Below the pieces are notes generated by a model. It was not told where the DNA came from and did no database searches. It saw nothing but the letters and a program-made list of their open reading frames with translations. A program made the position numbers and the translations under genes. From assembly GCA_937901265.1 (NCBI GenBank), contig CALCHA010000631.1:1-12089 (forward strand): a stretch of DNA of 12,089 bases. The letters are read 5' to 3'. Positions within the stretch are counted from its first letter, which is position 1, and each line of letters starts with the position of its first letter. The DNA is from an uncultured Phycisphaerales bacterium (lineage in GTDB: Bacteria > Planctomycetota > Phycisphaerae > WQYP01). Below, in pieces: positions 8,556 through 11,500 of this stretch.

Positions 8556-11500
8556 ATGCCCAAACGCACCGACATCCACTCGATACTCATCATCGGCGCC
8601 GGCCCCATCATCATTGGGCAGGGCTGCGAATTCGATTATTCCGGCACGCAGGCGTGCAAAGCGCTCAAGGAGGAGGGGTACCGGGTCATTCTGGTGAACT
8701 CCAACCCGGCGACGATCATGACGGATCCGGAAATGGCGGACCGCACGTACATCGAGCCGATCACGGTGGAGGCGGTCACCAAGATCATCGAGAAGGAGCG
8801 GCCGGACGCGCTGCTGCCCACGCTGGGGGGTCAGACGGGGTTGAATACGGCGATCGCGCTCTACGACGCGGGGATCCTGGCCAAGTACAACGTCAAGATG
8901 ATCGGTGCCGACCGGGAGGCGATTCGCCGCGGGGAGGACCGCTCGGTCTTCAAGAAATTGATGGAAACGATCGGTCTGCAATGCCCGAAGTCGGGCCTGG
9001 CCCACTCCATGAGCGAGGCGCGGGAGATCGTCAAATTCACCGGACTTCCGTGCATTATCCGGGCGTCGTTCACGCTTGGCGGCACGGGGTCGGGGATTGC
9101 CTACAACATGGAAGAATTTGAGACGCTCTCGCAGCGCGGCCTCGACGCGTCCATGATCACCGAAATCCAGATTGACCAGTCGCTGATTGGCTGGAAGGAA
9201 TATGAACTCGAAGTGATGCGCGACGTCGCCGACAACGTCGTGATCGTCTGCTCCATCGAAAACTTCGACCCCATGGGCGTGCACACCGGCGACTCCATCA
9301 CCGTTGCGCCGGCGCAGACGCTGACCGACAAGGAATACCAGCGCATGCGCGATGCCTCCATCGCCATCATCCGCGCCGTCGGCGTCGAAACCGGCGGCTC
9401 CAACATCCAGTTCGGCGTCAATCCGAAAAACGGCGACATAGTCGTCATCGAAATGAACCCCCGCGTCTCCCGCAGCTCCGCCCTCGCCTCCAAAGCCACC
9501 GGCTTCCCCATCGCCAAGCTCGCCGCCAAGCTCGCCGTCGGCTACACCCTCGACGAACTCCCCAACGACATCACCAAAAAAACCGTCGCCTGCTTTGAAC
9601 CCTCCATCGACTACGTCGTCGTCAAAATCCCAAGATGGACCTTCGAGAAATTTCCCGACGCCGACGAAACCCTCACCACCCAGATGAAGTCCGTCGGCGA
9701 GGCCATGGCCATCGGCCGCACCTTCAAGGAAGCCCTGCAAAAAGGCATCCGAAGCATGGAAGTCAAACGCTTCGGCCTCGGCCTCGACAAACTCGACAAA
9801 TGGTGGCAATCGCAACAGGGAATTCAGAATTCAGAATTCAGAATTCAGAATTCCCAAAAGACCCTCGGCGACCGCGGCTCCGACATGACCCGCGTCAATA
9901 CCCAGGAACAAGCCGCCACCACCTGGCCCATCCCCGAAGAAGAACTCAACCGCAAACTCGCCATCCCCTCCCAGGGCCGCCTCTACTACATCCGCTACGC
10001 CTTCAAAATGAACCGCACTGTCGACGACGTCTTCCAACTCACCAACATCGACCCCTGGTTCCTCACCCACATGAAACAACTCGTCGACTTCGAAGACGAG
10101 CTCGTGACAGCGGCAAAAATGGTCAAGCCCACGGTTCGTAATTCAGCCGCGCCGGCGGAAGTCGAGGCGGCAAGCAAGCAGCTTCGTACATCTGAATTTC
10201 GAAGAGATGTCAGTGGCGTGACCGCTACGGTAGAGGGACACGAGCGCCAACTTTCTGGAACTTCGTACAGCTTCTCCGCGTTATTGCGTCGCGCAAAGGA
10301 ATGGGGTTACAGCGATGTGCAGTTAGCAACTGTCTTCGGCTGCACGCCCAAGGAAATGCGAGCATGGCGTGTTGTGCTTAAGATTCAACCCGTCTACAAA
10401 CTCGTCGACACCTGCGCCGCTGAATTCGAAGCCGCCACCCCCTACTACTACTCCACCTACGAATCCCCCATTCAAAAACTCGTCAACGGCAAACTCGAAC
10501 AAGTCACCGACGACGAAATCCGCATCACTCCCAAGAAAAAAATCATCATCCTCGGCGGCGGCCCCAACCGCATCGGCCAGGGCATCGAATTCGACTACTG
10601 CTGCGTCCAGGCCGCCTTCGCCGCCAAAGAACTCGGCTTCGAATCCGTCATGGTCAACTCCAACCCCGAAACCGTCTCCACCGACTACGACACCTCCGAC
10701 CTCCTCTTCTTCGAACCCCTCACCCACGAAGACGTCCTCAACATCGTCGAACGCCTCAACGGCCAACCTCTCGAACCCCCAACGCAAAACAGAGCCGCGA
10801 CCGTTAGGGAGCGACCGGTTAACCCCGGCCTCGTCGCCGGCGTCATCGTCCAATTCGGCGGCCAAACCCCCCTCAACCTCGCCCGCGGCCTCAAAGAGGC
10901 CGGCGTTCCCATCATCGGCACCGCCGTTGAATCCATCGAGGCCGCCGAAGACCGCGAAAAATTCAACACCCTCATCAAAAAACTCGGCCTCAAGCAACCC
11001 GAAGGCGGCCTCGCGCGCTCCGCCGAACAGGCCCGCGAAGTCGCTAAAAAGATTGGCTACCCCGTCCTCGTCCGCCCCTCCTTCGTCCTCGGCGGCCGCG
11101 CCATGGAAATCGTCTCCGACGAAGACCAGCTCAATTACTACATCCAGAACGCCGTCGAAGTTGCCGACGAACACCCCGTCCTCATCGATTCCTTCCTCGG
11201 CGACGCCACCGAAATGGACGTCGACTGCATCGGCGACGGCACCGACTTCATCGTCTGCGGCCTGATGGAACACATCGAAGAGGCCGGCATCCACTCCGGC
11301 GATTCCGCCTGCTCCCTGCCGCCATTCTCGCTGCCGAAGAAGATTCTCGATGAGGTCCGGCGGAACACCCTGATGCTGGCGCGCGAGCTTCAGGTGGTGG
11401 GGCTGATGAACATCCAGTTCGCGATCAAGGATGGCGAGGTGTACATTCTTGAGGTGAATCCGCGGGCCAGCCGCACGGTGCCCTTCGTGAGCAAAGCGAC

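Follow-up and report, generated by a model that had tools for sequence, protein, structure and literature searches.

carB of an uncultured Phycisphaerales bacterium is a compositional mosaic with an opposite-strand signature in its middle

The carB gene lying in the window considered here (the whole analysed stretch of 12,089 nt, contig C631) is a true compositional mosaic. Its third-base preference switches several times inside an intact gene, and the large C-ending block in its middle has the composition of the opposite strand. This mosaic pattern is genome-wide and not special to carB. Import or conversion of the carB tracts from close kin carrying the gene on the other strand is the explanation we lean towards, at somewhat short of an even chance; recombination, its donor and the replication identity of the strand are what we infer from the observations below.

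The host genome (G000) is metagenome-assembled, 3.41 Mb in size, 81.6 % complete and split into 707 contigs. Hereafter, WIN designates the carB of the window, G007 and G009 two strongly skewed relatives, f1 the family of the host, class the wider group and P0001-P0033 the CarB proteins of the clade. The G000 sample was composed of the window and 40 of the 707 contigs (232,703 nt), six of the 40 being picked for their repeat matches; f1 and class samples were the DNA stretches surrounding carB. Genes were called with a home-made scorer, which chose a wrong ORF (7528-8517) in place of the kinase gene within the window. This wrong ORF is still included in gene heterogeneity, neighbour-gene correlations, the looser boundary classification, codon and intergenic correlations and the G/C count of minus-strand genes; the call was mended in codon shuffling, inner-break counts and the skew-memory analysis.

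Segments and edges of the carB mosaic

The gene was identified by its profile scores (NF003671, 1627.8 bits for a cut-off of 599; TIGR01369, 1457.3 for a cut-off of 1027) and aligned in four blocks with E. coli CarB chains. Segmentation by penalised likelihood on fourfold sites ending in G or C placed change points at codons 257, 517, 612 and 921, corresponding to window positions 9324, 10104, 10389 and 11316. The resulting segments and the genes used for comparison were the following:

8556..12089, plus strand: carB, carbamoyl-phosphate synthase large subunit (NCBIfam, Pfam, E. coli alignment), open at the contig end
8556..9323, plus strand: 5' segment, G-leaning to mixed, 69G/54C at fourfold sites
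8842..9476, plus strand: graded 5' edge, best-fit 10-90% ramp with midpoint at 9159
9324..10103, plus strand: first C-ending tract, 3G/118C
10104..10388, plus strand: mixed tract of lower GC3 (0.55), hypervariable linker 2 and end of the oligomerisation domain, 14G/13C
10389..11315, plus strand: second C-ending tract, 5G/147C
11316..12089, plus strand: 3' segment, G-ending, 96G/45C, with the sharpest edge at its start
2745..6605, minus strand: large ORF, C-ending (120G/572C), comparison gene, 5' end probably overcalled
6229..8460, minus strand: histidine kinase gene, C-ending coding strand, comparison gene, 5' end of the stretch probably upstream of the true start

These counts confirmed the third-base switching along carB that a preliminary description had drawn from hand counts. 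The G-ending start described there was retained only for the 5' segment as a whole, which is G-leaning to mixed, but not for the first 30 codons (8556-8645), which are C-ending (11C/2G at fourfold sites). More than one segment was obtained for 24 of the 125 genes of the G000 sample and for none of the 125 once codon order was shuffled. Among the 125 scored genes, carB displayed the highest block heterogeneity, with a chi2/df of 6.54 against a 90th percentile of 3.12.

A sharp change of sequence character inside intact carB was found at three of its four edges. All boundaries had been called abrupt; this agrees with those near 10095, 10383 and 11313, where a step was the best fit, and not with the one placed at 9195, where a ramp of ~630 bp centred on ~9159 fitted best and a single step was 3.26 lnL worse. 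The edge at 11313 was the most constrained, a 79-bp ramp costing 2.26 lnL and a 211-bp ramp 5.0, and at 10095 and 10383 ramps of ~80-110 bp remained within ~2 lnL of a step. The 5' edge falls where carB DNA is best conserved, many of the 60 best windows being located within codons 203-256. Immediately upstream of the 3' edge, WIN and G007 match exactly over 23 nt (11283-11305).

The tract at 10104-10388 comprises linker 2, which is variable clade-wide, and ~40 codons of the oligomerisation domain. Its GC3 contrasts with the 0.80-0.86 of the other four segments, and values of 0.55 or less were met in only three of 1594 sampled 91-codon windows. Linker 2 is longest in WIN (67 residues, for a median of 33 among 34 clade proteins). 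Six proteins matched the tract region, five of them covering it at 38-41% identity and one covering 39% of it at 67% identity. A second genomic copy of the region was not found in the host genome, the next best match having an E value of 0.144. For 10104-10380, earlier suggested to be a further tract of different origin, a source was found neither among these proteins nor in the host genome.

Strand composition and the genome-wide patchwork

The C block had been likened to the coding strands of the minus-strand genes of the window, and this was borne out: the large ORF is as C-ending as listed above, and the kinase coding strand displayed fourfold G/C counts of 17/16, then 44/290. Usage of GAG, AAG, GAT and TTT was raised in the G-type genes of G000, G007 and G009 (r 0.58 to 0.86), and first and second codon positions tracked the G-type weakly (0.38 to 0.48); the same codon correlations in other family members were 0.00 to 0.29. 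Intergenic skew, computed for these three genomes, was correlated with that of the flanking genes (r 0.77, 0.65 and 0.34 in G000, G007 and G009, respectively). Neighbouring genes had correlated skews when on the same strand and anticorrelated skews when on opposite strands, in G000 (+0.60 and -0.57) as in G007 (+0.82 and -0.74). In other families the skew was weaker and its signs were unchanged (+0.68/-0.44), and in other f1 genomes there was little of it (+0.23/-0.28). The skew follows the DNA strand rather than gene direction and extends to intergenic DNA, with the qualification that in G009 the same-strand correlation was +0.52 and the opposite-strand one merely -0.07. The skew product of opposite-strand gene pairs was also about zero at short range in G009, so that the patches of this genome depend in part on gene direction. 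From its G+T/C+A form we infer that the strand effect stems from replication.

According to PMC7111523 and PMC2031905, replication-strand GC skew is an excess of G and T on one of the strands that is most marked at third positions, and aberrant skew serves as a warning of wrong assembly joins. Classical skew flips sign at origin and terminus, whereas that of G000 flips every few kb and within genes. A constant skew sign over long replichore arms was not seen in G000. There, the mean product of plus-strand skew signs was 0.22 (to 100 bp), dropped to 0.08 (to 2 kb) and reached 0.01 (to 6 kb), its memory being gone within 2-4 kb. In G007, the product was still 0.20 (to 12 kb) and fell to 0.08 at 20 kb, a memory persisting beyond 12 kb.

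Inner breaks, defined as lying at least 60 codons from either gene end, were found in 20/125 genes of G000, 15/100 of G009, 5/113 of G007, 0/137 of other f1 genomes and 1/83 of other families; 20, 14, 2, 0 and 1 of them, respectively, changed sign. In weakly skewed genomes a change of sign would scarcely be visible, and their 0/137 is therefore no clean control. The breaks at codon 149 of the ORF at 2745-6605 and at codon 60 of the kinase stretch may be spurious, since both starts are probably too far upstream, which would leave 18/125 in G000. This count is stricter than a looser boundary classification, which called nearly all boundaries intragenic, many of these being transitions between mixed and biased stretches. 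As carB (3.5 kb) exceeds the grain of the patchwork, a switch inside it is unsurprising; the size and purity of its block are surprising.

Other mosaic genes were looked up in relatives, and similar blocks were encountered in both G007 and G009 for one out of three. This was a 606-residue gene without Pfam match (L108:2563-4380, L240, L241), its like inner skew blocks being displayed in G007 and G009, not in G000. The sole inner break found outside the clade was located in another carB, that of G048 (L069:4013-7453), at codon 767 (152/222 to 140/69). In G009, the gene of a TOTE conflict-system primase/helicase and its convergent neighbour, an SNF2 helicase gene (L132:5284-10829), were both strong skew mosaics. 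An LpxC-FabZ fusion (L106:2551-3867), otherwise C-ending, carried a 46-codon G-ending patch in its FabZ part, and the skew of its G009 orthologue changed at codons 303-305, the start of the FabZ domain match.

Relatives, trees and possible origins

In the two strongly skewed relatives, the same codon blocks were recovered in one respect only. The carB of G007 was C-ending to codon 918 (87/304) and near neutral afterwards (60/78), which puts its break within about two codons of the sharpest edge of WIN. Its blocks otherwise differed, a lower segmentation penalty further splitting off codons 331-375 (15/6), and the carB of G009 was C-ending throughout (62/459). The step at codon 920 ranked first and third of 210 positions in WIN and G007, respectively, and averaged 0.01 in 21 other f1 carB genes and 0.02 in 16 class carB genes. 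For the break common to both near codon 919, a shared breakpoint, inheritance of the boundary and a hot spot of assembly are all conceivable. A universal carB pattern is disfavoured, as other carB genes displayed no such block or step on average.

Synonymous sharing beyond composition between WIN and G007 reached f 0.143 in the flanks (95% range 0.072-0.194, z 4.5) and 0.030 in the block (95% range -0.029-0.089, z 1.07), two ranges that overlap slightly; being near-uniform, the block also has less room for sharing, hence lower power. The corresponding flank and block values were 0.099/0.075 for G007-G009 and 0.055/0.014 for WIN-G009. The block seems to have been rewritten or replaced after the split of WIN and G007. 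Among 20 orthologous pairs of G000 and G007, 12 had a skew above 0.2 in both members (eight were dropped), and five of these 12 had opposite signs, which makes donor copies on the other strand plausible. Gene skews of orthologues were correlated at 0.14 for G000-G007 (20 pairs), 0.67 for G000-G009 (6) and -0.05 for G007-G009 (8). Correlations of their within-gene profiles were 0.147 (p 0.009, 20 pairs), 0.059 (p 0.29, 6 pairs) and 0.241 (p 0.005, 8 pairs) for the same comparisons; for carB alone, the profile of WIN correlated at 0.13 with that of G007 and at -0.01 with that of G009.

Trees were built from 40 proteins, 34 from the clade and six from outside it, and the five carB segments (S1 to S5, the last being the 3' segment) were tested singly, with the flanks also joined. 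In the inner-block tree WIN grouped with P0004 and P0011 (100/94). This grouping was recovered in S2 (100/85) and weakly in S4 (72/45), and it was not rejected in S1 (p 0.582), S5 (p 0.222) or the joined flanks (p 0.498). In S5, the rows nearest to WIN were P0003 and P0014; S2 (p 0.049) and S4 (p 0.036) rejected a clade of these three, which neither S1 nor S5 nor the flanks taken together did, the tested clades having been chosen post hoc after earlier analyses and the p values being uncorrected. WIN with P0001 and P0002 was rejected in no segment, and terminal branches of WIN were near the median in every segment. At most, the segment trees appear to give a weak hint of conflict. Discordant trees across the five segments, anticipated earlier as a mark of recombination, did not emerge clearly, the grouping with P0004 and P0011 being found or unrejected everywhere. 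Any donor would accordingly have to be close kin. A distant donor is disfavoured, having left no sign in the segment trees. No donor was identified among the best 120 of at least 8000 candidates scored, which held no closer copy, the nearest protein being 85% identical.

Mosaic genes arise by intragenic homologous recombination. Like such mosaics, carB combines an abrupt inner change of sequence character with an intact gene; it differs in that strand composition is what sets its tract apart, and in that its protein trees are without clear conflict. The tracts 9324-10103 and 10389-11315 carry a third-base make-up such as genes take on when located on the opposite strand. If imported, they would derive from a close relative with carB oriented the other way relative to replication. 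Their carB DNA would have entered through homologous import or through gene conversion, in a genome that is already a patchwork of few-kb tracts of this kind. Segmentation and shuffles, the strand nature of the signal, three step edges, weaker ancestry in the block, oppositely skewed orthologues, the conserved setting of the 5' edge, the 23-nt G007 match beside the 3' edge and the weak tree hint argue for such an event. Against it stand the missing donor, the weak and post hoc character of the tree hint, the graded 5' edge, the overlap of the flank and block ranges of third-base sharing together with the lower power of the block, the weak profile correlation across genera and the 606-residue gene with like blocks in G007 and G009; recurrence of the codon ~919 break in G007 is also odd for an event supposed private to WIN. 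The earlier proposal of an opposite-strand homologous replacement of the middle of carB is upheld in composition and strand nature, and the replacement is the best of several candidate readings. The weak tree hint, the break in G048 carB and the two doubtful gene calls pull both ways.

A chimeric assembly, joining carB pieces of at least two co-occurring relatives at conserved stretches, is unlikely. It would suit a bin of 707 contigs in which carB lies at a contig end, as it does in G007, and edges located within or beside conserved DNA; sign changes were also commoner in fragmented bins (20/125 in G000, 14/100 in G009 with ~320 contigs, 2/113 in G007 with ~100). However, exact identity to G007 extends over no more than 21-26 nt at the edges, which is short for a join with such distant kin, four edges in one gene would require several joins, the bin holds one carB and no second of like similarity, and breaks occur in helicase and defence genes too. 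We likewise consider it improbable that a local mutational domain of ~2 kb (e.g. antisense transcription or a local fork pattern) rewrote third bases in place. The ~2-kb patchwork genome-wide, the graded 5' edge, the break shared with G007, the gene without Pfam match with like blocks in two relatives, the weak profile correlation between genera and the location of the single inner break outside the clade, again in carB, are all in its favour; the step-like edges, the low correlation of the WIN profile with those of G007 and G009 and the lack of an average step in the other f1 and class carB genes are not. That the whole gene once lay on a C-rich strand, then switched strand and had only its ends rewritten since, is very unlikely: the C-ending carB of G009 and most of that of G007 would fit such a relic, but third-base sharing with G007 was lost in the block and kept in the flanks, and ends-only rewriting hardly explains a step edge. 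That the block was shaped by codon selection or by an additional reading frame is the most remote of the readings considered. Long open frames do overlap opposite and beside the block, but four such frames had no Pfam match at E 0.01, the skew is common to intergenic DNA, and other carB genes lack such a block on average.

An extension of the favoured import from kin to the whole chromosome is less likely than not: this lineage of Phycisphaerae might owe its ~2-kb skew patchwork to homologous import that takes place very often between kin whose gene orientations are scrambled. Replication-strand composition would then stain imported DNA like a natural dye, carB being the clearest case sampled. 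Should the tracts be true imports, inner skew sign would mark recombination even where trees fail, because it records the strand on which the donor copy evolved. Should they be assembly joins, the skew statistic would offer a quick chimera test for metagenome bins, and should they be neither, a one-strand process acting over ~2 kb would be new. Among the matches listed for limited search terms in open-licence literature, none was a paper dealing with skew-sign tracts within genes.

Repeats in the carB linkers

The three carB linkers correspond to gaps in the E. coli alignment, at E. coli residues 409-423, 477-488 and 631-636. Short repeats of the genome have repeatedly settled in them (9820-9853, 10104-10250 and 10780-10823; proteins P0001-P0033), a finding separate from the codon mosaic. 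Two inserts were delimited in WIN:

9820..9853, plus strand: heptamer array of unit GAATTCA, 34 nt, in frame in linker 1, shared with G007
10780..10823, plus strand: copy of a dispersed short repeat, ~44 bp, in linker 3, with many partial copies in the host genome

The heptamer array displayed a strong single-stranded DNA fold (z -7.15) and the dispersed repeat copy did not (z 0.22). The linker 1 array is shared by WIN and G007 with a 41-nt exact match, and its pattern was found in two of 46 genomes, G000 and G007. The core of the linker 3 insert, CGACCGTNAGGGAGCG, was present in 15 of the 46 genomes, with 430 sites in G009, 32 in G008, 19 in G000 and 7 in G007; reversed-pattern controls gave no site. 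It is a dispersed repeat family.

Perfect arrays in the G000 sample comprised four of period 7, none of period 4-6 or 8-11 and one of period 12. At the protein level, a run of at least three identities at lag 7 was found in linker 1 of 14 of the 34 clade proteins and none of nine outgroup proteins; within the range of lags from 3 to 12, linker 1 displayed such runs at lag 7 alone. Linker 3 displayed four proteins at lag 7, two at lag 3 and two at lag 8, and linker 2 a single one. As a lag-7 background, 33 of 1700 35-residue windows were counted, drawn at random from these proteins with their linkers. A 7-residue peptide period is expected of a 7-nt DNA unit, and these periods indicate that different heptamer arrays apparently entered linker 1 in many lineages with the frame kept.

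Rickettsia palindromic elements, according to PMC10969869, are short dispersed repeats lying in frame inside protein genes. They are ~150 bp long and code for conserved peptides, whereas the carB inserts are 34 and ~44 bp long and the linker peptides vary between lineages. Tandem repeats within Borg ORFs, according to PMC9879509, add a repeat peptide and have a unit divisible by three. The carB heptamer array likewise lies within an ORF, but unlike those repeats it has a unit of 7 nt and hence a period of 7 residues.
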